41,749 nt of DNA from a virus. Positions 1,444-37,580 of the stretch are shown piece by piece. The notes beneath the pieces are model-generated. The model made no database searches. It was given only the letters and a program-made list of their open reading frames with translations, and was not told the DNA's origin. The stretch's first letter is position 1, and each line of letters opens with the position of its first letter. Position numbers and translations under genes: made by a program. The stretch is from IMG/VR virus record IMGVR_UViG_3300048547_000017, positions 1-41,749 of that record; one strand, written 5' to 3'.

Positions 1444-2155
1444 AAGGTACTTCTTCTTTGTTCAATTTTGGAAAAGCATCTTTTTTAGATAAAAGTTCTG
1501 CATCTGCCTTTGTAGCAGCCGCAATCTTTTCCTTATCTTTCGTTGAGTGTGAAAGACCAAGTGATGGTCTAGAATCAAATTTACAAAAATCAGCAAATGG
1601 CCCATTTTTGTCTACATAATGTAAAAATACTTGTGTTTGCCAGGCACCCTCTGGTGCATCAAATGCTTCTCTCCAATGTTCCACTTCACACCCACGATAG
1701 ATTACTCCATCACCAGGCTCCATAGGAATCATCTTACCCTTTGTACCTCTTTCACCATCTTCTGGGCCAACAAACATACCCCAGTTATAATCTTCTTTAC
1801 CCTTGTAATCATATCCTAAACAACAAGTAATAGATACTTCACAAGATGGTCTATCTTTATGTCTTTTTAATATATCACCTACTTTGTACAATCTATAATA
1901 AGAATAAGTAGGCCACAATTCTAAACCAGTAGATTGTTCTATTTTCTTTCTACCAAAATTCAAAAGTGTTTCCATAAGTGGGTCACCATAAACACTATGA
2001 CTGCCTGGAATCTGAGCACTTTCTGCTTCTGGTTGAAATAGTCTTGCTTTATCGTAATGTGAATATTGTGCCCCTACTTTTGCAATATCTTTAGGTATCA
2101 TTTCTTTTATAAGAACATACTTTTTTTCTTTAAAAAATTTTACAGTATCAATCAT
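1421..2155 (-). CDS. 2OG-Fe(II) oxygenase-like protein (uvsY-uvsW block, distal copy)
   Basis: A 244-residue protein with a double-stranded beta-helix dioxygenase signature. H99-K-D101 forms the HxD iron motif and H160 (in EVEHWRE) is the likely distal histidine, about 60 residues later. The usual 2-oxoglutarate-binding arginine is not obvious; the matching strand reads WQTQVFLHYV. The start at 2155 was chosen over an in-frame ATG at 2179. It overlaps the previous stop as ATGA and has AGGAAAG upstream at good spacing. The substrate is unknown. Family members hydroxylate proteins, nucleic acids or small metabolites, and marine T4-like phages often carry several. It differs clearly in sequence from the other three oxygenases here, so it is not a recent duplicate. 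The oxygenase call is good; activity is inferred. Confidence 0.75.
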   Translation of the reverse strand: MIDTVKFFKEKKYVLIKEMIPKDIAKVGAQYSHYDKARLFQPEAESAQIPGSHSVYGDPLMETLLNFGRKKIEQSTGLELWPTYSYYRLYKVGDILKRHKDRPSCEVSITCCLGYDYKGKEDYNWGMFVGPEDGERGTKGKMIPMEPGDGVIYRGCEVEHWREAFDAPEGAWQTQVFLHYVDKNGPFADFCKFDSRPSLGLSHSTKDKEKIAAATKADAELLSKKDAFPKLNKEEVPYENREKK

Positions 2156-3015
2156 TTGAACATCTTTCCTAAATTCCATACTACTAAAGAGTATCTAGTT
2201 CCCTCAGTAACTGGAGTAACCAAGTGGTGTATGAATGATGGAAATACTATGATAGAACCTCTTGGTCTTATTTCCGTACAAGTGTGATATCTTTTACTAC
2301 CCATATGAGGCCCTAAATCAAATTTAAGATTACCACCTTTGTAATTTTTTGGATTGGTTAAATTTACTGTTACGGATAATTTTCTAGTCTTCCAGAATTG
2401 ATTTGGATTATCTACAAAACCAGGCGCTGGAATATATCTTGGCAATCCTTCAAATTTACCACCCCTATATGTTTTATCAAACTTTATTTCTTTACCAGTA
2501 TCATCTTTTGCAACTATATAATTCCCATCATTATCTTTTCTTCTTTGTTCTTCTACTGTTGGGTCAAATGGTATGTATGGTCTTGAACCACCATCAGTAT
2601 GCCAAGAATAAAACTGGCCTGGATTGTAAACTGTAAACTGACAAGTTTCAGAAAAATCCCACTCAAAATTCCAGTTTGCTTTTTGATTTGCTTCTCGTAT
2701 AAATGGGTGTATTAAATCATATATCCATTTATCTGCTAACCACCCAACTTTAGTATCTCTAACATAAACATCTTCTTCTTTAATACCTTTTTGTCTTCTA
2801 CCTTGTGCAGTCAAATGATTTTGTGCGATATTACCAGCGTTAGATGTTTCACCACCCTTTTGTCTAAAATCAAAAGTAGTAGCATCAGTTGCTTGCTTTC
2901 CATTTTTTTGTTCTGTGAGAGTCATATCAGATAACCCTCTTTCTATAATTGCATTACATTGTTGGTCATTTAATGCACCTATGAAATAATAGTAGTTATT
3001 TTCACATATACTCAT
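2152..3015 (-). CDS. 2OG-Fe(II) oxygenase (prolyl-4-hydroxylase-like)
   Basis: A 287-residue oxygenase with the complete iron and cosubstrate signature: H139-T-D141 in WHTDGG, distal H264 in FPSFIHHLVTPVT, and R274 in EGTRYS for the 2OG C5-carboxylate. An insertion of about 70 residues rich in K, D and G (142-210) lies between the HxD motif and the next core strand, longer than in compact phage homologues. The start overlaps the uvsY stop as ATGA (3012-3015), so translation is probably coupled to the recombination mediator. Function is likely hydroxylation of a protein or nucleotide substrate in the infected cell. The substrate is not visible from sequence. The fold and catalytic call are strong. 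Confidence 0.88.
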   Translation of the reverse strand: MSICENNYYYFIGALNDQQCNAIIERGLSDMTLTEQKNGKQATDATTFDFRQKGGETSNAGNIAQNHLTAQGRRQKGIKEEDVYVRDTKVGWLADKWIYDLIHPFIREANQKANWNFEWDFSETCQFTVYNPGQFYSWHTDGGSRPYIPFDPTVEEQRRKDNDGNYIVAKDDTGKEIKFDKTYRGGKFEGLPRYIPAPGFVDNPNQFWKTRKLSVTVNLTNPKNYKGGNLKFDLGPHMGSKRYHTCTEIRPRGSIIVFPSFIHHLVTPVTEGTRYSLVVWNLGKMFK

Positions 3016-3422
3016 AATGCACCCTCCGTATATTTAATCCAAGTTGTTATGTTTCTTAATTGAAATCCTCTACTATGCAAATTTTTTACTATATGTTCTA
3101 AATAACCAGAAACTACTTTAAGATAATCTAATTTAGATTGTAGTCTAATCATATCTTCATCTGATTCTAAATATGTCGGAATATCTTGTCTAAGAATTTT
3201 TAACTCAAATGGTTTCTCTGCTTTACCAGAATAGTATTCCCATTTTTGTTTTTTTAATATTTTCATATCAGTTTCAGCCTTACTTAACATAAGTCTAAAA
3301 TTAGTGTAAAGTTTTAAATATTTATTTAATAATGCTGGACTTCTAGTCTCTTCTAGATTGATATTAGTTTCATCAATCTTTGAGTCTTTGTCAAACATTT
3401 CTTGTATTTTTGTTAAATCCAT
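3012..3422 (-). CDS. uvsY: UvsY recombination mediator
   Basis: 136 residues, matching T4 UvsY in length and end-to-end pattern. The N-terminus M-D-L-T-K-I-Q-E-M-F-x-K-D-x-x-I-D parallels the T4 start. A KWEYYSGKAE segment lies where T4 has its RLDYYSGRG segment, and a SRGFQLRNI segment near the C-terminus matches the SRGFAIKHI region. UvsY is the ssDNA-binding accessory protein that loads UvsX recombinase onto gp32-coated DNA during homologous recombination and recombination-dependent replication. It heads a tightly overlapping block with two oxygenases and uvsW. A perfect sigma70 promoter lies directly upstream with only 5 bases between its -10 box and the ATG. There is no Shine-Dalgarno, so the message should be leaderless. 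The match to the T4 N-terminus argues that this start is correct. Confidence 0.95.
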   Translation of the reverse strand: MDLTKIQEMFDKDSKIDETNINLEETRSPALLNKYLKLYTNFRLMLSKAETDMKILKKQKWEYYSGKAEKPFELKILRQDIPTYLESDEDMIRLQSKLDYLKVVSGYLEHIVKNLHSRGFQLRNITTWIKYTEGAL

Positions 3423-3427
3423 ACTAT

Positions 3428-3456
3428 ATTATATACCATAATTAAAAAGTTGTCAA
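3428..3456 (-). promoter_or_regulatory. Perfect sigma70 promoter for uvsY
   Basis: Read on the minus strand: TTGACA (3456-3451), a 17-bp spacer, then TATAAT (3433-3428). Both hexamers match consensus exactly. The pentamer ATAGT follows and then the uvsY ATG (3422), so a start about 6 bases after the -10 falls on the A of the ATG. This resembles a host-RNA-polymerase early promoter, unlike the T4-type late motifs before the head and tail genes. Confidence 0.88.
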
Positions 3457-12344: not shown

Positions 12345-12393
12345 AAAAATCGTTTTTTGTATGTTTGTTTTTATACCAAGTCTAAATATAAAT

Positions 12394-16125: not shown

Positions 16126-16835
16126 TGTAAAGACACTCCGTGTATTTTATTTGTACCAGTCAAAGAAGAACCTACTATTTTCCAACGAACTTGAACTTGA
16201 GGACTTGAAGAACCAGTTAAAGATGTGCTACCAGAAAATATTTTGATACCACTTGAACCAGCTTGATAACCTTCATCAGTTAATGTTATGTTATTAAATG
16301 TTGAGTTGTCTCTAGTAGCACTTATTGTAAAGTCTGAAGTTCCATCTGGTAATTCTGCGAATAAAACTATTCTTGCTGTACTTGGTGTTGTATTTGCAGT
16401 AAATGTATCTGATATTAATGTCATAGAAGTTGTTGAATTACTAAATGTATCTGCACTTGCATCATATGTTGCATTTGAACTTTCAGCAGTATCTACACCA
16501 GTGTTATCGTGAAATTCGTCTACTACACCATCTACTAAATTAAATATTGTGAGTCCATCATTAACTGCCATCTTGAAACCTAACACACCAACATTAAATG
16601 CATTTTCATCAATACCAGCTGTATCAATAGCACCAAATGAACCATCACCACGAACAAATTGTGATGGTGGGCCAGGTAGTGCTAACTTAGTTGCTGAAAT
16701 ATTTGCACTAGGAGAGATGTTTTCGTTTTTTACTTCTGCACCTATCTTAGAGCTATCAACTGAACCAGTATTTATTTCACCACTTCCAATAGCGTCATTA
16801 CTTAAATTTTGATTCTCTAACTTTGTTATGCCCAT
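16116..16835 (-). CDS. Short fibre paralogue lacking the glycine-rich domain, copy B
   Basis: A 239-residue protein made only of the N-terminal module (NISPSANISATKLALPG, FNVGVLGFKMAVNDGLTIFNL, DTAESSNATYDASAD) joined almost directly to the C-terminal module (TSMTLISDTFTA to SLQWE). It is a natural minimal form of the family: the join at about residue 138 is where the other copies carry several hundred glycine-rich residues. The reading frame is intact and the gene sits in frame-overlapping chains with both neighbours (10 bases each), so it looks functional rather than decayed. It may cap, trimerise or compete with the longer copies, or be a deletion product from recombination. Function is inferred. 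Confidence 0.7.
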   Translation of the reverse strand: MGITKLENQNLSNDAIGSGEINTGSVDSSKIGAEVKNENISPSANISATKLALPGPPSQFVRGDGSFGAIDTAGIDENAFNVGVLGFKMAVNDGLTIFNLVDGVVDEFHDNTGVDTAESSNATYDASADTFSNSTTSMTLISDTFTANTTPSTARIVLFAELPDGTSDFTISATRDNSTFNNITLTDEGYQAGSSGIKIFSGSTSLTGSSSPQVQVRWKIVGSSLTGTNKIHGVSLQWE

Positions 16836-18724
16836 TGTAGTGCAACTCCGTGAATTTTATTTGTACCAGTAAGTGATGACCCAACAACTTTCCACCTCAT
16901 CTGAACTTGTGGACTAGCACTTCCAGTTAAAGGTGTACTACCAGTATATATTTTAATACCACTTGAACCACTTACATACCCAGTATCAGTTAATGATACT
17001 GAATTGTATGTTGTATTATCTCTTGTTACTGATATTGCAACATCAGTATTTAAATCATCTGCTATTTCTGCAAACAACACAACTCTTGAAGTAGATGGTG
17101 TCGCACTCGCAGTAAATGTATCTGATACTAAAGTCATACTTGTTGCACTTGAACCAGCATCAAAAACTAAAAGAATACCACCATCACCACCAGCATTTGT
17201 TCTACCACTAGTTGACCCTTCACCTCTAGCTCCATCAGCAAAAAGTGCTTGTCTTGGTGAAGGCAATCCAGTATAATATGGTGCTTCGTCAAATACACTT
17301 AATGGAGTAGGATTTGATGCACTACCAACTGCTGCTTCATATTCTAAAGATGGAGTTGCAACATATGTAGGATTAGAGTATCCAGCACCTCCACCAGCAC
17401 CACCAGTATAACCGCCTGGGTCAGATGTACCACCACCTCCGTGATATCCAGAACCACCACCACCATAGTGATAAGGTGGATAACCCATACCACCACCTTG
17501 AAAATGTATTGCATCTGGGTGTGGAGACTCTTGTGTCCACTCTGCTGGCCCAAATCCAGAACCCTCACCAAAAGGATATGCCCCTAAATGTCCGTTTGCT
17601 TCTTGGTCTGCACCCCCACCAGATGCATTACTACCACCAGAACTAGCAGTAGGTACACTAAACCCACCAGAACCATTAGTTCCAGCAGTAAATCCACCAC
17701 CACCACCTTGTGCTGCTGGAGCACCGTTTGAATTTTCACCAGCACCACCAGAACCTACAATTAAAACTGCTTCACTAGCATTAGTTGGAGAAACTGTATC
17801 TGAAAAACCTGGCCCTTCAAATGGATAATTATTAGGTGTGCCTGGTGTATGATAATTTCCAGTTTCATTATATGTACCACCCTCTATGATTGTGACTTCA
17901 CTATCAAATATACCAGTAAAACCACCACTTCCACCAGTAGAACCATAAGCACCACCACCATAACCACCAGTAGCACCTATATCTGAACTTGGATATTGGG
18001 GGGTACTGTATTGTGGGCCAGCTCCTCCTTCACCTACAACATAATCCCAAGTAGCACCAGCGATTGATGGACTTGCTATTGTACCTTGTACACTACCACC
18101 AGAACCTCCAGAACCAGCGGCATTGTTTCCAGCACCAGCACCAACCATAGTTGCTTCTATTGAAGTTGTTAATGTGGGAAATGTTATACTACCTTGAGTT
18201 CCAAATGCACCGAATGTAGCTTCTTGAGAAGTGTATGTAATTAATGGTGCGTGTTCTGGGTTTTCAAATGTAACTGCATCTACACCAAGATGCATTGCAA
18301 CACCAGGCGTTGGTGATAAATTTTGATAAAAATCTGATGCTGATTCGTAAGATGCGTTTGAGTTTTCGCCAGTATCAATACCACCTTCACTATTAAATTC
18401 GTCTACGATACCATCAACAAGATTAAAAATAGTGAGTCCTTCATTGACTGCGAGTTTAAAACCTAACACACCAACATTAAATGCATTAGTACCTACTGCA
18501 CTTAAATCAACAGTACCAAAACTTCCATCACCTTTTAAAAAATCTGATGAACTTCCAGGCAAACTAAATTTATTTAATGCGATTGCAGCTGATGGAGAAA
18601 TATCACTATTGGTGATTGTTGCATTTGATATATCAGCAGTTGAAATTGAATTAGGTTGAATCTGTCCAGAACTAACTTTACCAGATTCTTCAATCATATT
18701 GCTGTTTACTTTAGTATCAGACAT
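16826..18724 (-). CDS. Glycine-rich tail fibre/adhesin-like protein, copy C
   Basis: 632 residues. The N-terminal module resembles copies A and B (NSDISPSAAIALNKFSLPG, FNVGVLGFKLAVNEGLTIFNL, SNASYESASDFYQN). The centre (about 175-525) differs from A, D and E: it starts with a beta segment (ITFPTLTTSIEATMVGAG), lacks the GGLI-Y-PVT block, and runs on with GSGGSGGSVQG and many GG repeats with aromatic residues. The C-terminal module is conserved and ends ALQWA. It is the first gene after gp16 (gap of 5 bases) and the first of the three-gene array. A receptor-binding role is likely but inferred. Confidence 0.72.
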   Translation of the reverse strand: MSDTKVNSNMIEESGKVSSGQIQPNSISTADISNATITNSDISPSAAIALNKFSLPGSSSDFLKGDGSFGTVDLSAVGTNAFNVGVLGFKLAVNEGLTIFNLVDGIVDEFNSEGGIDTGENSNASYESASDFYQNLSPTPGVAMHLGVDAVTFENPEHAPLITYTSQEATFGAFGTQGSITFPTLTTSIEATMVGAGAGNNAAGSGGSGGSVQGTIASPSIAGATWDYVVGEGGAGPQYSTPQYPSSDIGATGGYGGGAYGSTGGSGGFTGIFDSEVTIIEGGTYNETGNYHTPGTPNNYPFEGPGFSDTVSPTNASEAVLIVGSGGAGENSNGAPAAQGGGGGFTAGTNGSGGFSVPTASSGGSNASGGGADQEANGHLGAYPFGEGSGFGPAEWTQESPHPDAIHFQGGGMGYPPYHYGGGGSGYHGGGGTSDPGGYTGGAGGGAGYSNPTYVATPSLEYEAAVGSASNPTPLSVFDEAPYYTGLPSPRQALFADGARGEGSTSGRTNAGGDGGILLVFDAGSSATSMTLVSDTFTASATPSTSRVVLFAEIADDLNTDVAISVTRDNTTYNSVSLTDTGYVSGSSGIKIYTGSTPLTGSASPQVQMRWKVVGSSLTGTNKIHGVALQWA

Positions 18725-21974: not shown

Positions 21975-22793
21975 TTATCCTACCATATAATTTATTGGTA
22001 ACTCAAATCCTAGTTTCATTTCTTCTTCTAACTTAGTGATTTCATCTAACGCTTGTTGATAGATTGCTTCACCGTTCATAGTAACTCCACCTAACATTTG
22101 AACACCATTAAATTTTGATAGGTTAGAACCCCATTGTTTTTTAATTAATGCAGTTGCATATCTTTTTAAATACATATCATCAAATACATCTGTGTATACT
22201 GCTGGGTCTAATTTTCTATAACATTCAATTAAAAGAAAATCACCGTTATTGAAATCTTTTTCCATATCTGCGTGAATGTATAATCTGTTTTGATGTTCTT
22301 TAAAATCTATTGGATATTCACCAGTAAGAATGTGGTCTAGAAAATCTAGATGCCTCATTGTCATTTCATAGTGAATTATTGAAGTTGAACTGAAATCATA
22401 TAAATCATTTAGTCTTAATTGATAACGAACATCAAATAAATTTTGAGTTAATTTATCTGTTACTGGGTATACTTTTACAACTGATAATACACTATCTGGA
22501 ATAGGTAAATAATTTTCTTGTTGTAAGAAGTCTGCTGTAATTGAACTATCAACCTTATCAGTTGCTGTAACTGCACTTTCATTACTTCTCATTCTTGTAA
22601 TTTCAGTGGTTGTCAGTTGATGTTTTAAATATACTCTTTCAATACCATCATAGTGGTATTTTGAAAAATATTGTAAAGCTTCATCTACTCTATCATCTAA
22701 TTGGTCATCAGATATATTGATATCAATGACACCTTTACCTAATGCTCTTAAACAATATTCTTTAAATGTTGACTTTGAAGTAGGTACTGCCAT
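21975..22793 (-). CDS. gp13: Neck protein gp13
   Basis: A 272-residue head-completion protein. The N-terminal TSKSTFKEYCLRALGKGVI and DINISDDQLDDRVDEALQYF, the YHYDGIERVYLKH stretch, and the C-terminal KRYATALIKKQWGSNLSKF are family hallmarks. It joins gp14 at the portal after packaging. It is the first gene of a run gp13-gp14-gp15 and has AAGGATT before its ATG and a TATAAATA motif 20 bases upstream. Confidence 0.94.
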   Translation of the reverse strand: MAVPTSKSTFKEYCLRALGKGVIDINISDDQLDDRVDEALQYFSKYHYDGIERVYLKHQLTTTEITRMRSNESAVTATDKVDSSITADFLQQENYLPIPDSVLSVVKVYPVTDKLTQNLFDVRYQLRLNDLYDFSSTSIIHYEMTMRHLDFLDHILTGEYPIDFKEHQNRLYIHADMEKDFNNGDFLLIECYRKLDPAVYTDVFDDMYLKRYATALIKKQWGSNLSKFNGVQMLGGVTMNGEAIYQQALDEITKLEEEMKLGFELPINYMVG

Positions 22794-22812: not shown

Positions 22813-22820
22813 TATTTATA
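22813..22820 (-). promoter_or_regulatory. Late promoter motif TATAAATA for gp13
   Basis: An exact TATAAATA lies in the 38-base gap between the oxygenase block and gp13, 19 bases from the ATG, with AAGGAT between. It marks the switch from the sigma70-led oxygenases back to late virion genes. Confidence 0.78.
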
Positions 22821-22831: not shown

Positions 22832-23578
22832 TTATGTTCGTTTTTCAGCACCCTTCATAGTAAGAAAACCTTTCGCATCGTGTCCTTCTCTTTCGTCTTT
22901 AAATTTAAGACCTTTTTTTATGTGAAAAGATAAATTACCAGAAACACTTACTCTTAGACCTTTTTTACCTTTTAGTTCTGATAAATTAGGTTCTACTTCG
23001 TGTACTGCCCAAGATGGAAACATAATTAATCTGCCTGGAACTGGAGCCCAATATACTTCATTAAGTGTTTCTCTTTTTCTTAGTTTTTTTGGATTGTAAG
23101 GTAATTGAACTGCGATTGCTTGTGCTCTAGGGTCAGAAAACCATATTTGTCCACACTTTTCTGGAGATTGTAAATAGTAAACAAAACTAAAATGTGAGCC
23201 TGGGTGAGTATGATTACGATTATGAGCACCAAACTGAGAAACATTTGCCCACATATTATCAATGACTGGTTCTGTGTCTGGATTTAAATCCATTATTTCT
23301 TGTATTCTCAAACCTATTTTAAGTGCTTCTTTTCCTAAATCTTCATATTCCTCTCGCATATGCATATCTACTGCACTATGCCAACCTCTTGAGTTAGAAC
23401 GAACAATACCCCTATTGTCGTCATCTCTCCATTTAAAAATATGTTTTAACCATTTTTTATTTCTTTCTTCATAATTTAAAATATCTTTAAAATGAAATAG
23501 TGTAGGAAACCATATCTCAGATGTTATCTTTCCCCTATTATTTAATGGTACTTCTTGTGCGAGTTTATTAAATGTCAT
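22832..23578 (-). CDS. 2OG-Fe(II) oxygenase (TIGR02466-like)
   Basis: A 248-residue oxygenase of the family recognised by an H-T-H-P-G motif. H123-T-H125 occurs in NRNHTHPGS, H193 in FPSWAVHEVEP, and R209 in GLRVSVSGN as the likely 2OG-carboxylate ligand. Using H-x-H in place of H-x-D is normal for this family. The start at 23578 gives an ATGA overlap with the preceding oxygenase; an upstream ATG at 23602 is less likely. Family members are common in marine phages and bacteria. Their substrate is unknown. It is translationally coupled to the partner oxygenase at 23575-24234, whose metal site is damaged, suggesting the two may work as a pair. Confidence 0.85.
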   Translation of the reverse strand: MTFNKLAQEVPLNNRGKITSEIWFPTLFHFKDILNYEERNKKWLKHIFKWRDDDNRGIVRSNSRGWHSAVDMHMREEYEDLGKEALKIGLRIQEIMDLNPDTEPVIDNMWANVSQFGAHNRNHTHPGSHFSFVYYLQSPEKCGQIWFSDPRAQAIAVQLPYNPKKLRKRETLNEVYWAPVPGRLIMFPSWAVHEVEPNLSELKGKKGLRVSVSGNLSFHIKKGLKFKDEREGHDAKGFLTMKGAEKRT

Positions 23579-24234
23579 ACATAACTTGGGCCGTGTAACC
23601 AACCCTCAATACAATTTCTTACACCCTTTGTAACTTTAGTAACACGCCAAGGAACAAAAGATGGGAATATAATTATTTGACCTTTTTGTCTAAATAATTT
23701 ATTATCCGTAGTCATATTCATTAATTCAATATGTCCACCATCATAATCTTTGGTGTCAGATAATTGAATAATAAAAGTTAATTTTCTAAATGGTGCATTG
23801 TTTCCAATGTCTAAATGATAATTATAGAAGTTTTTGTTCTTATAACAAACTATTTGTGGATTGTCTGCTTGATAAAAACCAGCAAGTTGCATTTTAAAAT
23901 TTTTATCATTAGCTTGTTGTGCAAGTTCTAACACTTTAGTATAGGGCCAACCTTTATCGTTCATAGGTAAAGATTGTTGTGTTGCTTTTCTCACACCTTT
24001 TAATGAACTATCAACCCATAATTCTTTAACTGTTTCTTTTACTATTGCATCACATTCTTTTTCTGCAAAAAACTGTGATGTTAATATAGAAACTATATTT
24101 TTATTACCTACCAGTTTGACAATATTTTTATCATCTGGTTCAACAATATTTTTTTCTTGGGGTTCTTCTTTTTTTTCTTCCTCTTTTTTAGGAAGTTCCA
24201 GAGTATCAATCTCTGAGTCTGTAAATGTATTCAT
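23575..24234 (-). CDS. 2OG-Fe(II) oxygenase-like protein with altered iron site
   Basis: A 219-residue protein with a charged, K/E/P-rich N-terminal tail (10-40) and a prolyl-hydroxylase-like core. H140-L-D142 forms the HxD motif, DYDGGHIEL is the central strand, and R206 in KGVRNCIEGW is the 2OG arginine. The distal histidine, expected in FPSF-x-x-H-R-V-T, is replaced: the sequence reads FPSFVPWRVTKVT with W196, confirmed in the DNA as codon TGG. One of three iron ligands is therefore missing. It is either inactive or uses another residue. It is led by a consensus sigma70 promoter and an AAGGTG ribosome site and is coupled to the next oxygenase by ATGA. Confidence 0.8.
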   Translation of the reverse strand: MNTFTDSEIDTLELPKKEEEKKEEPQEKNIVEPDDKNIVKLVGNKNIVSILTSQFFAEKECDAIVKETVKELWVDSSLKGVRKATQQSLPMNDKGWPYTKVLELAQQANDKNFKMQLAGFYQADNPQIVCYKNKNFYNYHLDIGNNAPFRKLTFIIQLSDTKDYDGGHIELMNMTTDNKLFRQKGQIIIFPSFVPWRVTKVTKGVRNCIEGWLHGPSYV

Positions 24235-24253
24235 AATTTTTCACCTTTTAATA

Positions 24254-24281
24254 ATTATACACTATTTTTTTTCAATGTCAA
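24254..24281 (-). promoter_or_regulatory. Consensus sigma70 promoter for the oxygenase pair
   Basis: Minus strand: TTGACA (24281-24276), a 16-bp spacer, then TATAAT (24259-24254), both exact. The -35 lies inside the end of the upstream hypothetical gene. The ATG is at 24234, with AAGGTG in the leader. It resembles the uvsY promoter and differs from the late motifs of the flanking genes. Confidence 0.85.
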
Positions 24282-24774
24282 TAGGGTTTTTAATTTGGTC
24301 AACATCTGCACTAGTTGGTTTTATTAACCATTGTTTTGTTCTGTGTTTTTGTCCATTAAAAACTTTTCCCTCTTTTGCATTTTCTAACCATTTATGTAAT
24401 CGTGTAGATTTTACTGGTTTATATTCTTCTACCCAACCACCATCTAATTTTCTAGATAGTCTACCACCAGTTTTAGGTTTAGGCATTTTATTCCAGTGAA
24501 AATGTTGTTTATTAGTATTATTACTCATATAATAATTTTTTTTATGATATGTTCCTTCTTTGATTGCAATCCAAGTTTTAATTTGTTCTTTTTGTCTTTC
24601 TTTTTTACGAATCATTCGTTCCCAACGAAACAATCTTTGTGTTTCATCTTCTACTGTATAGAAACGACCTTGTTCATCAACCATTGTACCATTATATCTT
24701 TTATCGTGATAACTTATGATTGGAGGAAATTCTTCTTTTGATGGGGTTTTGTATTTCTGTTTAAATATCTTCAT
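24262..24774 (-). CDS. Basic hypothetical protein
   Basis: A 170-residue, lysine/arginine-rich protein with many aromatic and charged residues and no recognised motif. Charged helix-forming stretches include FRWERMIRKKERQKEQIKTW near 49-68, and later basic patches GGRLSRKLDGG and RLHKWLENAKEG occur. There is no membrane segment or signal peptide. The base at its end is shared with the -35 region of the next promoter. It lies between the glycine-rich fibre copy D and the oxygenases. No Shine-Dalgarno is clear before its start at 24774, so the start is tentative. A DNA- or RNA-binding role would suit the charge but is a guess. Confidence 0.6.
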   Translation of the reverse strand: MKIFKQKYKTPSKEEFPPIISYHDKRYNGTMVDEQGRFYTVEDETQRLFRWERMIRKKERQKEQIKTWIAIKEGTYHKKNYYMSNNTNKQHFHWNKMPKPKTGGRLSRKLDGGWVEEYKPVKSTRLHKWLENAKEGKVFNGQKHRTKQWLIKPTSADVDQIKNPIDIEKK

Positions 24775-24787: not shown

Positions 24788-26557
24788 CTATGCCCACTGG
24801 AGGGCTACACCGTGAATTTTATTTGTATTAACTTGGTTACTTCCAACAATTTTCCATCTAAGTTGTACTTGAGGACTTGCAGTACCAGTTAAAGGTGTAC
24901 TACCAGTAAATATTTTTATACCAGAACTTCCTGCTTGAAACCCTTCGTCTGTTAGTGTGACTGCATTAAATGTTGTATTATCTCTTGTTACTGATGCGTT
25001 GATATCGGTATTTAAATCATCTCCTATTTCTGCAAACAATACAAGTCTTGCTTTACTTGGTGTTGAACTTGCAGTAAATGTATCAGATATTAAAGTCATA
25101 CTAGAGTTAGCAATATCACCTTTACTTTCTGCAACAACAATAATACCAGAACCAGCAATACCACTTACACCAGTGCTTGCCGGAGCAGGGCCTTCCATAT
25201 GACCACCACCAGAACCACCACCAGTATTTACAACTGCATCAGTTCCAAAGAAACCCTCTGTGCCTGTAACGAAAGGACTATATGGACTTGATGTTGGAGC
25301 CCAAGGTGCAGATGCTTGATTAGTTGTTACTTGTCCTACTCCACCACCATAAGGAACACTTTCACTAGGAGGTGCAGTATCAGCACCACCTCCACCACCG
25401 CCGCCAGCATAACCTACTGGTGTTGAACCATCTGCAATATTATAATTTAAACCTATACCACCAGAACCACCTCTTTGTCCTTGAGGTGATGTTACATCTC
25501 CACCTTCTGCTCCTGCTCCTCCACCGCCACCAGAGTTTGCAAGTTGACTCTGTGGGCCAGTATGAAAACCTAATCCACCAGCATTTCCAAAAGAACCTCG
25601 TGCATTTATTGGTGTGCCTGGTAAAGGGTCGTTTGACAAGCCAGGAACTGGATGATTTGTTGTTTGAGTTGATGCGTGTTCAGCAGCTGGAACTACTGGG
25701 GCATTATTTATAGAACCAGTTCCACCAGCACTACCACCTTGTATTTGTGTGTGTTCTAAACTTCCAACATAACCTTCGTGATAATATCCACCACCAGCAC
25801 CACCACCCTCAGCAGTTAGAACTAACGCTGGAGCTGAACCAAAAACTGAATCTGTACCTTTTTCGCCTGGCGAATAAAGTTGTTGAACGGGAGTCTCTGG
25901 CATTGGGTCGTAAGCCCAAGTAAATCTTTGTGGTTGAAATGGTTCATAACCAGATGATGCAACTCCAAGAGGGCCACCTCCTCCAGCACTTCTACCACCA
26001 GCACCTACTGATACTGGAATACTTGTTCCACCAGTTACTGGATAATCTTCATAAAATATTAAACCACCAGCACCTCCACCACCACCAGCAGTATTATTAT
26101 ATCCACCAGCACCACCAGAACCACCTCCTCCAATAACTAAAATATCAACTGCTGATGTTGTAGGTTCTACTGAGTAAGTTCCAGAACCAGTATCAGTAAT
26201 AGATGTTCTTTGTATTGATGGAGAGGGTAAAGGTTGATTTGGATTTGTATTTGCATAAAAATCTGAAGAAGAATTATATACTGCGTTTGAATTTTCTGAA
26301 GTATCTATACCACCTTCACTATTAAACTCATCAACAATACCATCTACTAAATTAAATATTGTCAAACCTTCATTGACTGCGTGTTTAAATCCTAATACAC
26401 CAATATTGAAAGGTGTATTTGTGTCTGCTAAATCGGTATCAATTTCAGTTTTTGTAGATGTGATACTTGCACTAGGTGATATGTCTGCATCAGTGATAGT
26501 TCCATCTGTGATGTCAGTTGATTTTATCTGAGTTAAACCAGTTAAGGGATTTGGCAT
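24788..26557 (-). CDS. Glycine-rich tail fibre/adhesin-like protein, copy D
   Basis: 589 residues. The N-terminal module has NADISPSASITSTKT-like phrases, then FNIGVLGFKHAVNEGLTIFNL and DEFNSEGGIDTSENSNAVY. The glycine-rich centre (about 130-480) has VDILVIGGGGSGGAGGY, GGGGGAGGLIFYEDYPVT and VSVGAGGRS, close in layout to copy A. It ends with the shared C-terminal module (SSMTLISDTFTA to VRWKIVGSN-like, ALQWA). It has HKIH-type residues just before the end, like every copy. It follows copy E with a 3-base gap. A fibre-tip role is inferred. Confidence 0.72.
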   Translation of the reverse strand: MPNPLTGLTQIKSTDITDGTITDADISPSASITSTKTEIDTDLADTNTPFNIGVLGFKHAVNEGLTIFNLVDGIVDEFNSEGGIDTSENSNAVYNSSSDFYANTNPNQPLPSPSIQRTSITDTGSGTYSVEPTTSAVDILVIGGGGSGGAGGYNNTAGGGGGAGGLIFYEDYPVTGGTSIPVSVGAGGRSAGGGGPLGVASSGYEPFQPQRFTWAYDPMPETPVQQLYSPGEKGTDSVFGSAPALVLTAEGGGAGGGYYHEGYVGSLEHTQIQGGSAGGTGSINNAPVVPAAEHASTQTTNHPVPGLSNDPLPGTPINARGSFGNAGGLGFHTGPQSQLANSGGGGGAGAEGGDVTSPQGQRGGSGGIGLNYNIADGSTPVGYAGGGGGGGADTAPPSESVPYGGGVGQVTTNQASAPWAPTSSPYSPFVTGTEGFFGTDAVVNTGGGSGGGHMEGPAPASTGVSGIAGSGIIVVAESKGDIANSSMTLISDTFTASSTPSKARLVLFAEIGDDLNTDINASVTRDNTTFNAVTLTDEGFQAGSSGIKIFTGSTPLTGTASPQVQLRWKIVGSNQVNTNKIHGVALQWA

Positions 26558-26560
26558 AAT

Positions 26561-28249
26561 TTATTTCCACTGCAACGCAACACCGTGTATTTTATTTTCA
26601 GCAGTTTGATTACTTCCAACAATTTTCCAACGGACTTGTACTTGAGGTTGGCCAGGTGCAGCTCCAGTTAATGTAGTAGAACCAGAATATACTTTTGTAC
26701 CACTACTACCACTTACATAACCAGTATCTGTTAATGTGATTGCATCGTAGTTAGTGTTATCTCTGGTTGCAGAAACTGACACATCTGTATTTAAATCATC
26801 ACTTATTTCTGCAAATAAAACTATTCTTGCTTTAGTTGGTGTTGAGTTTGCAGTAAATGTATCTGATACTAATGTGCTACTTGTGGATGTAGTTAATGCT
26901 TCCATTTCCAATACGACTATTTGTCCACTACCACCATCACCGCCTGGAATATTATAATAAGAGGGGCCTGAGCCACCTGGCCCACCACCGTGTGAACCAC
27001 CTCCACTACCAGTGTTTACAACACCAGCATATCCAGTATCAGCTGCTAAAGTATGTGTGCTCTGTGGATTGTGGTTTCCATCACCACCACCACCTTCACC
27101 ACCTTCTGTTTCACCGCCTGGAGCATATCTACCACCAGAACCACCGCCACCAACTTTACCATCTGAATGACCATAACCAGCAGGAAACCAATTTAATTGT
27201 GGATTAGGAGGCCCTACTGCAATACCATCACCACCAGCACCAGCGTTTGCACCACTAGCAGCATTACCTTGTTCACCAGCACCACCGCCTCCTCCACCAG
27301 CATAACCTGGCCCAGAAGCATAACAGATACCACCGTCAAATCCTTGTTGTGTTAAATCTCCAGCAGGATGTCTATTTTCTCCAGTTTCACCTTCACCTAC
27401 TGTACCTTCTTCGTAACCACCACCTCCACCAGAACCACCAGGCAATCCGTCTGTTACTTCTTGGCCAGGAAAATCTTGGTCAGACCCAGATTCGTTAATA
27501 GTATATGCATGGCCACCAGAACCACCACCCTCTGCCGTAATTGTTGGGCCAAAAGTTGAATCATCGCCTGGTCGTGAGTTTCTTCCTGCTGGATTATCTG
27601 GGGTTGCTATTGAAAGGGGAAAGATAGTTGGAGCATCGCCAGGAAAATATGGTTGTATTGCTGTTGGATAAGATGGGTGCCAAGGATGAAATCTACCTTC
27701 ACCACCAGCACCAACATTTACTGCAACACTAGCACCACCAGTTACTGGAACATCAGCATCTAAAACAACACCACCAGCACCGCCGCCGGCACCTCCACCA
27801 ACACCCATTCCACCGCCACCACCAGCGCCACCACCACCGATTGCAAAAACTTTAACGACAGTTGTAGTTGGTTCATTTGAAAATGTACCAGGCCCAGTTG
27901 ATGTTAATCTTGTTAGAGTTGCTTGAGGTGTAGGAATAGGAGTAGGGCCGTCTAAATTTGAATAAAAATCGGAACTAGCATCATATTTTGAAGTTGCATT
28001 TTCTGATGTGTCTATACCACTTTCATTGTTGAATTCATCAACAATACCATCAATTAAATTGAAAACAGTAAGTCCTTCACTTACTGCCATCTTAAAACCT
28101 AAGACACCAATATTAAATGCGTTTGTACTAATTTGAGCTGCATCTAATCCAGCAACTTTAGATTCTGCAATACCAGCAGTTGGACTAATGTCTGCATTTT
28201 TTACTTCAGCGTCTTTTATGTTTGATGATTTGATAGTTGTTAATGGCAT
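26561..28249 (-). CDS. Glycine-rich tail fibre/adhesin-like protein, copy E
   Basis: 562 residues. The N-terminal module is NADISPTAGIAESKV followed by FNIGVLGFKMAVSEGLTVFNL and DEFNNESGIDTSENATSKY. The glycine-rich centre (about 120-450) includes VKVFAIGGGGAGGGGGM, GGGAGGGAGGVVLDADVPVT, VNVGAGGEG, and many GG and proline-rich turns. It closes with the C-terminal module and the terminal ALQWK. It differs from A and D in the central repeats and has no PNY/EDY-type aromatic block. It lies directly after the gene at 28252 and before copy D. The ATG follows a weak ribosome site within the end of the upstream gene. Confidence 0.72.
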   Translation of the reverse strand: MPLTTIKSSNIKDAEVKNADISPTAGIAESKVAGLDAAQISTNAFNIGVLGFKMAVSEGLTVFNLIDGIVDEFNNESGIDTSENATSKYDASSDFYSNLDGPTPIPTPQATLTRLTSTGPGTFSNEPTTTVVKVFAIGGGGAGGGGGMGVGGGAGGGAGGVVLDADVPVTGGASVAVNVGAGGEGRFHPWHPSYPTAIQPYFPGDAPTIFPLSIATPDNPAGRNSRPGDDSTFGPTITAEGGGSGGHAYTINESGSDQDFPGQEVTDGLPGGSGGGGGYEEGTVGEGETGENRHPAGDLTQQGFDGGICYASGPGYAGGGGGGAGEQGNAASGANAGAGGDGIAVGPPNPQLNWFPAGYGHSDGKVGGGGSGGRYAPGGETEGGEGGGGDGNHNPQSTHTLAADTGYAGVVNTGSGGGSHGGGPGGSGPSYYNIPGGDGGSGQIVVLEMEALTTSTSSTLVSDTFTANSTPTKARIVLFAEISDDLNTDVSVSATRDNTNYDAITLTDTGYVSGSSGTKVYSGSTTLTGAAPGQPQVQVRWKIVGSNQTAENKIHGVALQWK

Positions 28250-30254: not shown

Positions 30255-33200
30255 CTATCCAGTTGCAACAACCCTTAATCTTTTTATAATTGGTGGATTA
30301 GTTGAATCTGTTCCTCTCATTCTTATTTTGATTTGGAACGCATTAAAGTCTGCAAGGTCTTTCGCAGAATATTCGTGTTCTATAAAGTCATCTCTTGTAG
30401 TAGATGAGTTAGTAGTAATATCTGGTTGTCCATTTGTATTAAAGAAAGTATAACCAACATCATTAAAGTCTGATGAATCATCAGTTCTTAATGTTTTAAA
30501 CATTACATCAATAGTTGATGTTGCTGGTCTGACTGCATCAAATTTTACATTAATCTGATTGGCTGCACTCTTCATTTGAACTTGTCGTGTTAGATATATT
30601 GCTTCTAAACTATCACCCTCTGGTTCAGTTGCTGGAACATATAATGTAGTTGGATAAACATCTGATGAACTTTGAACATTGTTAAGTCTATGAGTTATAG
30701 TTGCAATAGATGCTCTATCTAAATCAATAACTGGTGTTAAGTTATCAAACTCTGAAGACATAGTTAAAGTTAAGAAGAATGATTTAGATGAATTCAATTC
30801 GTTTGTTTCATTAATTGTTGATGTAATCATTCTTGGTACATCAAAATAATAGTTTCTACCTAATACTATTGGTCTAGATGCACTAGTAGATTGTAAATTA
30901 AATGATGTTTGTGTACCGTCAACAGATGTTGCAGTTGTTGTTCTAATATTTGCAGTAATTTTTGTATTTGGATATTCAACATTACTTACAAGTGGTTTCA
31001 TAACATCCATCATTGCATTTTCAGTTACAACAGTTGTTGAATCACCAAATTTAATACCAGAGGTTGCATTTGAAGCTGTTGTTGCAGTTGCAGTCTGGGT
31101 TGCAAGTGTATTTGCAGTTGTAATTGTATACGAATCAATTCCTACATTTCCGACTGATGTATGAGTTCTATTAATTTGGTCTAATGGTATTCCATCTACT
31201 TCATATAATTCTATACCAGCACCAGAACTATGTGCAATCGCACCAGTAGGTCTTGTTATACTGGTTACAGAAGAACCAGAAATAGTACCACTAAAGATTT
31301 CATCTTCTCTAATATCACCAGTAGTTGAATCTCTTGGAACTGTAATTTTTAATCTTACTGAACCACTGCCTGGGAAACCAGTATTACTAGTTAATGTTAG
31401 TGAAGTATCAGAGGCACCAAAAGCACCGTTAAGAGTAGTTGAAACTCCAGACGATACACCACTAATTGCAACATTATTTGTTGTTGCATACATATGGTGG
31501 TTTCTATGTGTAACTTTTACTACACCAGAACTTGCAAGTGATTCTAATGAATTTTGTTTTAATGTTCTAGTTTCTACTGAATCATTTGTTAATACTAGAT
31601 TTGATGTTTTACTTGTATCAAATTTTGCACGATAAAGTGAGAACTTAATATCTTCATCTTGATATGCGTTCCAAGTTCTATTGTTTTGAGATTTAAATAA
31701 CACACCAAGATATGGTTGGTCATTAACAATCGTTCCAGTATCAATATCTGCATCACCTAATTTAGAAATCCAAAGTTTATAATCTCTTGAATCTGTTTTC
31801 ACAACCAATGCATATTCACTATGGTCTGCAACATAAATTGGTGATTCAAATTCAAATGTTGTAGCAGTAGTTGCGTTATCTGATAATAATATTTCAGAAG
31901 ACTCTAGTGTTTTAGATGCAAGTGGTAATAATTTCTCAGTTGGATAACCATCTCTCATTTCTCTGATTTGAACAGTTACTGGAACTCTTTCATCTTTTTC
32001 TTGGAAATATAAATCTACTTTTGTAATAAACTCACCACCAACACTATCAACAATAAATGATTGTGCAAGCGGATCCCAAGGCTGTATTAAAGTTCTACCT
32101 CTATGTTGGAAACTTCTTGATTCAAAAACTTCCTCTTGGAATAATTGTCCGTTTCTTGTTCTTGTAACAGTTTCTTCAATAGTGTTTAAGAAACCTCTTG
32201 CAGTATAGATACCCTCTGCATATGTTTCTACACCTTCTAAATTGACATCATCTGCTTCATTAATTCTAGAAGATGTTAATCTGAATTGTCTTTCACCAGT
32301 TTTAAATGCTGGGTTGCCTGGAGCGTTAGGGTCTGGAATACTAAAGACACCACTTATTGAACCAGTAGGGCCTGTTATGAAATTATTACCATCTTCACCT
32401 GGCGGTAATAGTTTTTGTACAGTTCCACTTTCTGGAGTCTGTGTTCTTGTTCCAGTAAATAAATTATATGTAATCTGAAGAACAGAATCTCTAGGAGTGC
32501 CTGGAGTTTCTGCACCAACTGGTGGTACTATTCCGTCAATAGTTGCACTTGGATTTGTTAAATTCTGGAATTGTACAACAGAACAGAATTGTGTTAAATC
32601 AATATTAGTTGTTGCATCTGCATTGAAAAATTCTACACCATATAATCTATGTCCAGCACAAGTATGAATAGGGTCTTCTGCTCTTTCAATCTGAATTCTC
32701 CAAAACTTTTCACCTTGAATGTTAGGGCCAACTACACCCTCAGCTGCAGTTGTAAAGTCATAAGTATAAAATGCATTACTATTTCTTGAGATGTTTATTG
32801 TTGTATGTAATGAGAACTGTCCTACTGTATTAAATCCATATTCAGAATCAGAACTCATAATTTTTGCAACATAATCGTGTGCAGTATCGTTATTATCGTA
32901 ACCAAATCTAATTTTACCTATGGCAGTCCAGTTTGGAGTTTCTGGTAAAGTGATTGTTGTTAATGTTCCACCAGGCTTACCACCATCTGGAACACAGAAA
33001 TCACCAATATATTGTCTATCAAAGAAAGGATAAACTCTTGTTTTAGGTTTCATTTTAGATGCTCTAAATGTAACATTTCTAGAACGAATAAATGGAACTA
33101 CATCTTGTCTAATTAATTCATTACCGATAGGTTTATGGTCATTAACTTCAGTTACAAAAGTTCTTGTACCATTTCTAACTTGGTCTGTTAAAACTAATTC

Positions 33201-36200
33201 CCAAAGACCACCTCGTCCCCAACCATTACTAGTTTGTCCGATAACACCAGATGAAATAGTTTCCCAAGCATTCCATATAGTACCTAATGCATCTTCACCA
33301 CCAGCGGCTTGTAATATCTGGTCAAAGTTACCCTCTAAGTTAATTACAATTTGTGGAAGTTTATTTACTTCAAACCATTCATCACCAGATGGGTCTAATT
33401 CTAATACACCAACCCAAGCAAAGAAGTATGCAGCTTGAGCACTTTCTACTCTAGTTGCAAACTTATTTCCAACAGTTTCAACAGAAGTAAATGGTAGCAT
33501 ACATTGGTCACCAATTTTAGAATAACCATCATTTGCTCTTGCAGTAGAATCTTCGTTTTGTTCTATAAGTGCAACATTCTTCATAGAGTATTTTGGTCTT
33601 AGTGTTCTGTTTTCATAATCTATTGCACAACTATAATCTTGGTGAGATACATCACCAGTTTTATGTCCAGTAAAATTATCAACAACAAAACCAGATTTAA
33701 ATCTATCAAATCCGTTTGCATCTAATACTTGGAAGTTTTCTGTTTCTGCTTCTAATAAGTTAAGAGTTGTATAATCTTCTAGTCGTTCTATTCTATTTTC
33801 TAAACGACCAATATCTCTCATTGTAAATCTGTTATTTTTTTGTATTCTTAAAAATATATCTTGTTCTGGTTCTTTGACATAAGGTTGCATTAATACATCA
33901 ACTATTTTCATAGCTTCATTTTCAGATAATGGTTTAGGTGGTTCTGTTATTTCTGTTTCAACATCTAAACCTTCTTTAACTACAAACTGTTTATCTTTAG
34001 TTAAGAAAACACTATCTGTTCTACCTACATAAAAATCTAAATCATATTGAAAGTTAGAATTGTCTTGTGGAATATTTGAAACTATTGAACCAGCTGCAGA
34101 GAAGTTTCTTTGTGCAAAGTTAAATGTATAATCATTTACTCTTTCAGTAGATAAACTTTGTGATGATGTTGTTACAGTAGATATTGTATCATCATTTGCA
34201 ACAGTAGGTCTAAAATCTATTGAGTCGTGTAATAAGAATCTACCTCTAGGTTGTCTTTGTTCTGTGTCTACTCTTGTTGCAAGGTATGTAGGAATTTCTT
34301 TATAATCTATGTTTGAATATGAATCTACATTGAAGAAATCACCAGTACCGTGAGTAAAGTGGTCGCATACAATTAATAATTTACCAATAGGAACATCAAC
34401 ATTTGTTTTTCTGATTATTCTAGAAATATCATAATATGAATCTCTCATACCATCATCTAATACATAATTACTAGTTACTACTGTATCACCAGCAGTAACA
34501 ACAGTAGTTGTACCAGTTGCACCACTTGTTAAACCAGTAAATGTTTCACCGTCTGAAAAGTTTTTATTAGATAATAAAACATAAAAGAAAGTAGTTGGGC
34601 CTGTGTTAATAAGAGAACCTATTGCACCACTAGTTGTACCTTTTATTCTTTCACCTTTAGTAAATGTTCCACTTGAAACTGTTCCAGTAAATTGTGGAAC
34701 TAATGGGTCGGTAGATGCGTTTGCAGATTCGTATATTGCTCTTATTTTATATACATCAGTTCTACCTAAAGAAATCTCTTTGTGATGTGCAGATGTACCA
34801 TATTGTACACCACCACCTACACCATTGTTATCTACAATAACTAAATGAGCAGGATTGTTTGTTTTGTTTTTTTGTTGTGCAGTAGTTTTTGAAATTGTTG
34901 CAGTCACTTTAACTACACAATCTGAAGATGTTCCGAAAACAGTTGTATCAGTAATTGTTGCAGTTTTAGAATCACCAGCCAATACAGCAGAAGTCATATC
35001 ATCAATATCAATAATATCTCCATCATTACACCCACCAGAACCATCATCTAAAATAGTAATTGCATAATTTGTATTAGATAGTGCATTAAATGTTTCGTTA
35101 GTTCCAGCAGTTATTACTATCTGTCCAGATGCATTTGATGTAACAATAAATTGTTTCTTAAATGTATAAGAAGTTTGTGATACACCATTGTTGTCCGTAG
35201 TCAACATTGTTTTTGCATATTTCTTAACTGTTTTTCTTAAAAGAATATTTTTGTTTACATCATTAATTTTTGTTCTTGTTCTAATTGCACCAACACTTGT
35301 TACATTACTAGAGATTAAAACTATATCTGAATTACCAGTACCAGCAGTATCTGGAGTTGTAATACCAGAGTTTACTGGATATGTAGCTGTATTATTTGAT
35401 GCATATGTAATAGTTGCTTTACCATTATATCCGTTAATTGCGTGGTCTTTAAATACAACAGTTCTACTTCCAGAACCACTTAATACTGAACCAGTAGTTG
35501 CAGTGAACGCTCCAGTTGCAGTAAATGTTGCAGTACCACTAGAACGAGTAGTATTAGATGTGTTTACAACTGCACCACCTTGAATACAGAAATAAGTTGC
35601 AGAAGTATTATTTGTTACACTTTCAATAACAATTTTTTCTGTTGCACTAGCAGCACCAGTTGGAACTTCTAAAACATCACCAGCTTTTAATTCAGTATTA
35701 AATAAAGTGTTTTGTCCAACTAAAGTATTTGTGTTTCTTGTAAGTGATACTGTACCAGTAAGACTGAATCTACTTTGCATAGTACAATCAGCACTAAAGT
35801 TTGCTTGATTTGAATCATCATCATTCATAAAGACTTGTCTTACTTGACTAATGTCAAATGACTCTATTGCACTAATTGTTAAATCTGTTGTTGTACCATT
35901 TTCGTGTACTAATTCATCTGATTGAGTTGATGCACTTGATTTTACTTTTTCACCACTTGAGAATATACCATTTACATTTGTAAGATAAACTGCATCTGAA
36001 CTAACAGAGTGAACAAATCCAGTTGCACCAGAATTTGCACCAGTTATTTTTGCCCCAGCAGCAAATTCAGATGAAGTTACTACTCCACTAAAATCAATCT
36101 CTGTAAACATTTTAATATCAAATAATCCAAGATTAAATGTTGAATCATTATCTGCACTATTTGATAAAAAGTCAGTTACTGTGGAATTATTTGCAGCTGT

Positions 36201-37580
36201 ATCAAAACTTCTTACTCTTGCAACACCAATTTTTCCACCGTCTTCTGTTAAAATACTATCTGTTTCTATTCCTCTTCCTGGCCCGCCAGTTGTTCCAGTT
36301 ACTTTAGATGCTGTAAAATTATCGTGAAGTGAAACTTCCATAAATGGTTCATCAATAGAACCAGGCGTTTCTGGAGATATGTCTGGAGAACCAAATGTAT
36401 TTTCTACTACGATTGTATTACCAACTTCAACTGGTGTGATTGCGTTATCAACATTATCAGTTGTTCTTGGTTTTCTAATATCTATAAATGTTGGGTGACT
36501 TTTTTCTATTTCATAACCAGCAACATATGCCTTACCAGGCGTTAGATGTAAAGTAAGTAAATCTTCAGATGCTGTATTTCCACTATCAGTAGTAGCACCA
36601 GATTCAAATATTCCATTATTAATACCATCAGCTAAAGTTTCTCTTGCATCTGGTTTAAAATCTCTAACAATATAGTGTCCAGATTCGTCATAAGTTCTTC
36701 TTGCAAGTGTTTCACCTAATACTGCATATTCAGTATTTCTTGATGCAGATAAAACATTACCAAGATTTACTCTCATTATTTCTACAAAATTTGTATCATT
36801 AGTATCTGTTAAAGATAATTTAGAAAGTGTTAATGAGATTTTTAATCTATGAGCACCAGCTGCGTTTTCGTTTGATGTACCAGTTGCATTATCATATAAT
36901 GTACTATCTTCTTCTGGAGTTACTAAATCTTCTGTAACTGTAAAACCTATTCTATATGATGGTGTGTTTCCATACTTATCTAAAACTAATGTTTGTTCTG
37001 TAACATTTACAAAAATACCTCTAACAAAATATGTTCCAGCCGCAACTGTTACTGCTGAACCTATTGCAGTTGCATCTGTTGATTGACAAGTTAATGATTC
37101 TTGTCCAGCAATAAATGAACCGACTGCACCGTTAGCTGTTAAGTTTTCACCATTAGAAAATACAAAAGTTTCACCAGTTAAATCTGGATTTAAATATTTT
37201 ACAAATAAAGTGATTGGGTCATCACCACTTGCAGCTGCAGTTCCTACAACTTTTGCAGATACTCCAGATGTTGCACCAGTAATAACTTTATCTACATAAG
37301 ATGAAATATTAGATGTAATGTCTGTGGTATTAAATGTTCCTTGAACTTTAACAGCATAATACTGTTTGTCCATTCCAACTTCACCACCAGATATAATTGC
37401 ACCTTCTTTAAAGATGTTTCTACCCATTTCTTCAACTTGATTTTGAAGTATAGATTGTTGTGTGGTTAGTTCTCTAGCCTGTACTGCAAAGCCAGGTCTA
37501 TATAATACTTTATGAAAATTTTTACTTGTATCAAAATCATCATAATATGGTGATACATTTAGATTTGTTTTTTGTGCCAT
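30255..37580 (-). CDS. Giant gp10-like baseplate/tail protein (DUF4815-type)
   Basis: A 2441-residue virion protein, by far the longest gene here. The N-terminus (NLNVSPYYDDFDTSKNFHKV, then LYRPGFAVQARELTTQQSILQNQVEEMG) is the hallmark of DUF4815-type baseplate proteins of cyanophage-like myoviruses. The middle has repeated beta units with E-R-I-K-G-T-T-S-G-A-I-G-type turns. RFLLHDSIDFRP occurs near 1110, a helical segment RIERLEDYTTLNLLEAE follows the middle, QHRGRTLIQPWDPLAQSFIVDS lies near 1830, and a jelly-roll-like C-terminal region ends RMRGTDSTNPPIIKRLRV. It is thought to form the baseplate periphery and fibre attachment region. It lies between gp8 (gap of 2 bases) and a small coiled-coil gene. 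It has only a weak ribosome site. Whether it is the gp10 counterpart is uncertain. Confidence 0.82.
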   Translation of the reverse strand: MAQKTNLNVSPYYDDFDTSKNFHKVLYRPGFAVQARELTTQQSILQNQVEEMGRNIFKEGAIISGGEVGMDKQYYAVKVQGTFNTTDITSNISSYVDKVITGATSGVSAKVVGTAAASGDDPITLFVKYLNPDLTGETFVFSNGENLTANGAVGSFIAGQESLTCQSTDATAIGSAVTVAAGTYFVRGIFVNVTEQTLVLDKYGNTPSYRIGFTVTEDLVTPEEDSTLYDNATGTSNENAAGAHRLKISLTLSKLSLTDTNDTNFVEIMRVNLGNVLSASRNTEYAVLGETLARRTYDESGHYIVRDFKPDARETLADGINNGIFESGATTDSGNTASEDLLTLHLTPGKAYVAGYEIEKSHPTFIDIRKPRTTDNVDNAITPVEVGNTIVVENTFGSPDISPETPGSIDEPFMEVSLHDNFTASKVTGTTGGPGRGIETDSILTEDGGKIGVARVRSFDTAANNSTVTDFLSNSADNDSTFNLGLFDIKMFTEIDFSGVVTSSEFAAGAKITGANSGATGFVHSVSSDAVYLTNVNGIFSSGEKVKSSASTQSDELVHENGTTTDLTISAIESFDISQVRQVFMNDDDSNQANFSADCTMQSRFSLTGTVSLTRNTNTLVGQNTLFNTELKAGDVLEVPTGAASATEKIVIESVTNNTSATYFCIQGGAVVNTSNTTRSSGTATFTATGAFTATTGSVLSGSGSRTVVFKDHAINGYNGKATITYASNNTATYPVNSGITTPDTAGTGNSDIVLISSNVTSVGAIRTRTKINDVNKNILLRKTVKKYAKTMLTTDNNGVSQTSYTFKKQFIVTSNASGQIVITAGTNETFNALSNTNYAITILDDGSGGCNDGDIIDIDDMTSAVLAGDSKTATITDTTVFGTSSDCVVKVTATISKTTAQQKNKTNNPAHLVIVDNNGVGGGVQYGTSAHHKEISLGRTDVYKIRAIYESANASTDPLVPQFTGTVSSGTFTKGERIKGTTSGAIGSLINTGPTTFFYVLLSNKNFSDGETFTGLTSGATGTTTVVTAGDTVVTSNYVLDDGMRDSYYDISRIIRKTNVDVPIGKLLIVCDHFTHGTGDFFNVDSYSNIDYKEIPTYLATRVDTEQRQPRGRFLLHDSIDFRPTVANDDTISTVTTSSQSLSTERVNDYTFNFAQRNFSAAGSIVSNIPQDNSNFQYDLDFYVGRTDSVFLTKDKQFVVKEGLDVETEITEPPKPLSENEAMKIVDVLMQPYVKEPEQDIFLRIQKNNRFTMRDIGRLENRIERLEDYTTLNLLEAETENFQVLDANGFDRFKSGFVVDNFTGHKTGDVSHQDYSCAIDYENRTLRPKYSMKNVALIEQNEDSTARANDGYSKIGDQCMLPFTSVETVGNKFATRVESAQAAYFFAWVGVLELDPSGDEWFEVNKLPQIVINLEGNFDQILQAAGGEDALGTIWNAWETISSGVIGQTSNGWGRGGLWELVLTDQVRNGTRTFVTEVNDHKPIGNELIRQDVVPFIRSRNVTFRASKMKPKTRVYPFFDRQYIGDFCVPDGGKPGGTLTTITLPETPNWTAIGKIRFGYDNNDTAHDYVAKIMSSDSEYGFNTVGQFSLHTTINISRNSNAFYTYDFTTAAEGVVGPNIQGEKFWRIQIERAEDPIHTCAGHRLYGVEFFNADATTNIDLTQFCSVVQFQNLTNPSATIDGIVPPVGAETPGTPRDSVLQITYNLFTGTRTQTPESGTVQKLLPPGEDGNNFITGPTGSISGVFSIPDPNAPGNPAFKTGERQFRLTSSRINEADDVNLEGVETYAEGIYTARGFLNTIEETVTRTRNGQLFQEEVFESRSFQHRGRTLIQPWDPLAQSFIVDSVGGEFITKVDLYFQEKDERVPVTVQIREMRDGYPTEKLLPLASKTLESSEILLSDNATTATTFEFESPIYVADHSEYALVVKTDSRDYKLWISKLGDADIDTGTIVNDQPYLGVLFKSQNNRTWNAYQDEDIKFSLYRAKFDTSKTSNLVLTNDSVETRTLKQNSLESLASSGVVKVTHRNHHMYATTNNVAISGVSSGVSTTLNGAFGASDTSLTLTSNTGFPGSGSVRLKITVPRDSTTGDIREDEIFSGTISGSSVTSITRPTGAIAHSSGAGIELYEVDGIPLDQINRTHTSVGNVGIDSYTITTANTLATQTATATTASNATSGIKFGDSTTVVTENAMMDVMKPLVSNVEYPNTKITANIRTTTATSVDGTQTSFNLQSTSASRPIVLGRNYYFDVPRMITSTINETNELNSSKSFFLTLTMSSEFDNLTPVIDLDRASIATITHRLNNVQSSSDVYPTTLYVPATEPEGDSLEAIYLTRQVQMKSAANQINVKFDAVRPATSTIDVMFKTLRTDDSSDFNDVGYTFFNTNGQPDITTNSSTTRDDFIEHEYSAKDLADFNAFQIKIRMRGTDSTNPPIIKRLRVVATG

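Follow-up and report, generated by a model that had tools for sequence, protein, structure and literature searches.

A conserved sigma70-type promoter precedes an overlapping pair of 2OG-Fe(II) oxygenase-like genes in a pelagimyophage-like marine virus

Introduction

2OG-Fe(II) oxygenases of the families discussed here (PHROGs 61 and 81) have been described in cyanophages and pelagimyophages, such as P-RSM4, Mosig and HTVC008M, and a comparison of T4-like cyanophages proposed that they affect 2-oxoglutarate signalling in the host, or else DNA repair (PMC3037559). In pelagimyophages the host recognition cluster, which runs from VrlC to the neck gene, is a hypervariable island (PMC7029224). At the neck-gene junction Mosig carries a larger oxygenase/ferrochelatase cassette of eight genes and HTVC008M an opposite-strand operon, both with oxygenase clusters, and Melnitz has no such cassette. 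An attempt to predict middle and late promoters in pelagimyophages failed (PMC7029224), and a study of Melnitz identified no MotA-type middle promoters (PMC9004378). One precedent for the regulation of an auxiliary gene is psbA of cyanophage S-PM2, where sigma70 early elements are joined by a late element for gp55 (PMC5931967).

Here we describe two oxygenase-like genes, OX2 and OX1, which belong to the same families as those phage enzymes and lie at the same neck-gene junction as the Mosig and HTVC008M clusters. Identity to the best matches in named phages does not exceed about a third. Unlike the Mosig and HTVC008M cassettes, which have no near-perfect sigma70 site and whose oxygenases keep the distal iron-ligand histidine, the pair is preceded by a perfect sigma70-type promoter and OX2 has lost that histidine. 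It also differs from S-PM2 psbA, a photosynthesis gene in which both promoter elements occur together, since OX2 has no exact late motif nearby.

Results

The DNA analysed (41,749 bases, hereafter the window; GC 34%) belongs to a T4-like marine myovirus of pelagimyophage type, whose major capsid protein shares 72% identity with that of the methylophage Melnitz, 71.6% with that of the pelagiphage Mosig and 69.5% with that of HTVC008M. One edge of the island is the neck / head-tail adaptor gene (21975..22793, minus strand), assigned by synteny with Mosig, HTVC008M and Melnitz, and the other is a VrlC-like baseplate gene (30255..37580, minus strand) with a DUF4815 match and a gp8 neighbour as in Mosig. 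Between these limits, 30255 and 22793, the OX2/OX1 pair falls within the host recognition cluster and, because the neck junction is one edge of that cluster, it sits in a known cargo island and not in a fixed structural operon. At the same junction of Mosig, a SAR11 phage, the cassette (L143:39650-44735) is annotated with phycocyanobilin:ferredoxin oxidoreductase, heme oxygenase, ferrochelatase and endonuclease V, and additionally holds four 2OG oxygenases. Elsewhere in the window, glycine-rich tail-fibre-like paralogues with N- and C-terminal segments in common (14326-18724 and 24788-28249) straddle the neck and sheath-stabiliser genes, and a small gene on the plus strand that has CxxC pairs and an HNH-like look (12361-12720) lies between sheath and terminase, where Melnitz also has a small opposite-strand gene.

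OX2 (23575..24234, minus strand) is a PKHD/PiuC-like member of the 2OG-oxygenase family (PF13640, 47.8 bits, cut-off 27), and OX1 (22832..23578, minus strand) is a 2OG-Fe(II) oxygenase of PF13759 (75.8 bits, cut-off 27). The two genes overlap by four bases, ATGA; a listed TTG start of OX1 at 23602 is less likely. In OX1 the HxH at 123-125, His193 and Arg209 are invariant, and the HxH and His are common to the structures 3bvc and 2rg4. The core of OX2 aligns with PKHD-type hydroxylases including PiuC (PDB 3dkq, 9ghl), with which it has in common the HxD motif (140-142; H140 and D142 invariant) and the 2OG-binding Arg206. However, the distal histidine of these hydroxylases aligns with Trp196, which occupies the third iron-ligand position of OX2 in 21 of 21 distinct sequences of the clade, whereas histidine is present in 10 of 10 distinct deeper homologues, in the PKHD hydroxylases of known structure and in the other aligned phage oxygenases. 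This conserved His-to-Trp replacement in one member of an overlapping pair is new here, and it was unexpected. The Trp-bearing sequences form one group (support 100/99) in a tree whose root is not fixed, a grouping consistent with a single change in OX2. Estimates of dN/dS were 0.04-0.22 for OX2 and 0.11-0.34 for OX1, and OX2 is under purifying selection. AlphaFold2 models built from shallow alignments (mean pLDDT 34 for OX2 and 60 for OX1) were too poor for use.

The sequence-only reading of this DNA had noted a perfect sigma70 promoter close to the start of the pair, and it is there: a 12/12 match (24254..24281, minus strand) with -35 TTGACA at 24281-24276, a 16-nt spacer and -10 TATAAT at 24259-24254, ending 19 nt ahead of the OX2 ATG, with a predicted transcript start at about 24247. 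The -35 box lies in the last codons of g170 (24262..24774, minus strand), a conserved gene with no assigned function, and a Shine-Dalgarno-like AAAAGGTG (24242..24249, minus strand) can be read ahead of OX2. Only two 12/12 matches occur in the 41.7 kb, one before OX2 and one before uvsY, against a shuffle expectation of 0.05 + 0.03, or about 0.08 per window (0.05 for an OX2-type site). Weak matches (at least 9/12), when pooled, were at or below shuffle counts in the window, and the promoter claim therefore rests on the perfect matches.

As had also been claimed, no site of this quality lies at the start of any structural gene in the window. The description of the pair as flanked by late-motif genes holds downstream, where the neck gene has TATAAATA just past OX1 (22813..22820, minus strand), 19 nt before its ATG, but not upstream, where the two adjacent genes have no late motif of their own. 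In the window, OX2 has no late motif within 90 nt. A candidate inside the OX2 -10 region (TATAATTA, one mismatch from TATAAATA) was set aside, as relatives do not keep it.

The second perfect promoter (3428..3456, minus strand; spacer 17) stops 5 nt short of the ATG of uvsY (3012..3422, minus strand; PF11056), with which a 2OG-Fe(II) oxygenase gene (2152..3015, minus strand; PF13640) overlaps by ATGA. Another oxygenase pair had been placed behind this promoter. The site does precede uvsY and the overlapping oxygenase, but a pair is unproven, since the protein encoded at 1421-2179 matches no Pfam family and only PHROGs entries named ferrochelatase; searches of Pfam and PDB for an oxygenase match to it came back empty. 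The same protein has an HxD and, further downstream, His/Arg motifs that recall those of 2OG oxygenases. In many promoters of this kind (window 3422-3456; contigs L204, L210, L211, L213 and L202) only 5-7 nt separate the end of the -10 from the ATG, as seen at uvsY, a DUF3310-like gene and others, an arrangement that would result in leaderless mRNAs; among the 15 sites of related contigs whose downstream gene could be read, 8 are arranged in this way.

A search of other genomes, which had been suggested as a check, found the OX2 promoter retained. Among 20 close relatives, which are not independent of one another, the -35 TTGACA is present in 20 and the -10 TATAAT in 19 (the remaining one has TATACT); spacing is 16 nt in all 20 and the discriminators vary. 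Some of the -35 conservation could reflect coding of the g170 protein. However, the conservation goes beyond coding constraint: the Asp codon within the -35 box is GAC in 11 of the 11 relatives examined, compared with 21% GAC among Asp codons of the window, and the hexamer is intact despite Ile-to-Leu and Ile-to-Lys changes in neighbouring g170 residues. In four relatives (L046, L007, L010 and L053) a DUF2061 gene of 73-75 residues is located between promoter and OX2, and there the promoter leads the enlarged cassette, 7 nt upstream of the inserted gene. This small membrane-protein gene (L046:4777-4998 and its counterparts) is present or absent among otherwise close relatives. Eight related contigs contain 16 exact sigma70 sites versus 1 for the reversed pattern. 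Judged by its conservation, the OX2 promoter is real.

In order to relate promoter class to gene function, we surveyed Mosig, HTVC008M and Melnitz, with gene classes assigned by hand from annotations. Sigma70 matches of at least 11/12 within 110 nt of the gene were found for 0/89 structural versus 11/81 replication, nucleotide or transcription genes (Fisher p = 2e-4), a split that is statistical, since most replication genes lack a near-perfect site close to the start. The late motif NATAAATA, within 60 nt, showed the opposite distribution (31/89 versus 1/81; p = 3e-9). In longer contigs of viruses nearly identical to this one, the genes that could be recognised behind exact sites are uvsY, DUF3310-like and LGT_TIGR03299-like genes (small, of replication type, and named for their resemblance to Melnitz genes) and this cassette, and none of those recognised is structural. 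The suggestion that oxygenases carry this promoter as a rule did not survive the survey: only 2 of 35 oxygenase-type cargo genes in cultured relatives have a near-perfect sigma70 site and 5 of 35 have the late motif, so we rejected it as a general oxygenase trait.

The OX2-OX1 order is kept in homologues of 41-50% identity. In these deeper homologues the operon is OX3-OX2-OX1, behind a g170-like gene (marine viral contigs L187, L191-L193 and L196-L198), and the site before OX3 is a perfect sigma70 promoter in L187 and L192 and TTGAC[A/T]-17-TAGGAT in L191, L193, L196 and L198. Pair order and a sigma70-like operon head are therefore as in the window, but in these contigs a third oxygenase comes first, OX2 has the histidine, and it mostly has its own late motif (TATAAATA-type, 25-26 nt upstream in L187, L191, L192, L194, L196 and L198). 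In another clade (L190, upstream of 783/829, and L197, upstream of 2325) oxygenase genes follow a repeated motif around CTATGTAAAT, which may be a separate promoter type.

Discussion

Our results favor a reading in which OX2 and OX1 form a two-gene cassette in the host recognition island, in that order and probably translationally coupled. The host RNA polymerase, directed by the housekeeping sigma factor, would transcribe the cassette before late (gp55-type) transcription, from a promoter of the same class as those of uvsY and other replication genes; a second, late round of transcription would very likely follow through read-through from the upstream tail-fibre genes. OX1 would be the probable enzyme, and OX2, its distal ligand lost, would most probably serve OX1 as a structural or regulatory partner, or else be an altered enzyme. 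Taken as a whole, we regard this explanation as probable, with some room left for the others considered below.

Judging from promoter class, transcription of the pair is likely to be non-late, that is, early or middle. Early expression, as originally proposed for the pair, agrees with this to the extent that the promoter class goes with non-virion genes. However, early cannot be told from middle use here, because uvsY is a middle gene in T4 and MotA-type promoters were not identified in Melnitz. Exclusively early use is unsupported as well: the search for terminators found none on the minus strand from the upstream tail-fibre genes to the pair, and late transcripts are therefore expected to run on into it.

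This expected read-through is also what gives weight to the view that the pair is late or constitutive cargo, with the promoter in use but most of the product coming from the late tail-fibre operon and acting during virion production. The TATAAATA-type motif before OX2 in deeper homologues, which indicates that pre-late expression is not needed everywhere for function, points the same way, as does the excess of late motifs over sigma70 sites among oxygenases of cultured relatives. However, OX2 of the window has no such motif within 90 nt and its sigma70 site is kept under constraint, and we consider this view unlikely, if the most serious of the rivals. Less probable still is a role in taking over the cell, as the sequence-only reading had it, with host proteins or nucleic acids as the substrates that the oxygenases would modify early in infection. 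The promoter class and the proposal made for the cyanophage oxygenases (PMC3037559) would suit such a role, but nothing in the analysis supports it: no substrate points to it, the promoter class is common to replication genes, the Mosig and HTVC008M oxygenases at this junction do without the promoter, and deeper homologues have the same pair behind a late motif.

That the promoter match is incidental, the product of an AT-rich intergenic stretch and the conserved g170 C-terminus, seems very improbable. At a GC of 34% chance matches have to be considered, and all matches of 9/12 or better are together no more frequent than in shuffles; the perfect sites, however, exceed shuffles, both hexamers and their spacing are kept, and g170 uses GAC where GAT is preferred.

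In the 2OG-oxygenase superfamily, a protein that loses one of its three ligands usually no longer binds iron or works by a different chemistry. OX1, which has the full ligand set of its family, is probably the enzyme of the pair, and OX2 may be its non-catalytic (structural or regulatory) partner or an enzyme of altered chemistry. A more specific proposal, which we put forward tentatively and hold somewhat less probable than its negation, is that OX2 is a pseudo-oxygenase that lost the ligand once, in the ancestor of the clade, and that strong purifying selection then maintained it as the obligatory partner of OX1, translated together with it and controlling or targeting it, the cassette having gained a pre-late promoter.

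OX1 and OX2 are a candidate enzyme/pseudo-enzyme pair open to tests in vitro, for which the His-bearing homologues with late motifs provide a natural contrast to OX2 of the window. For pelagimyophages, the survey tells the promoter classes apart. Few auxiliary genes that still lack an explanation are as common in ocean phages as those for 2OG-Fe(II) oxygenases, and the cassette described here yields a prediction of when in infection its products would act.
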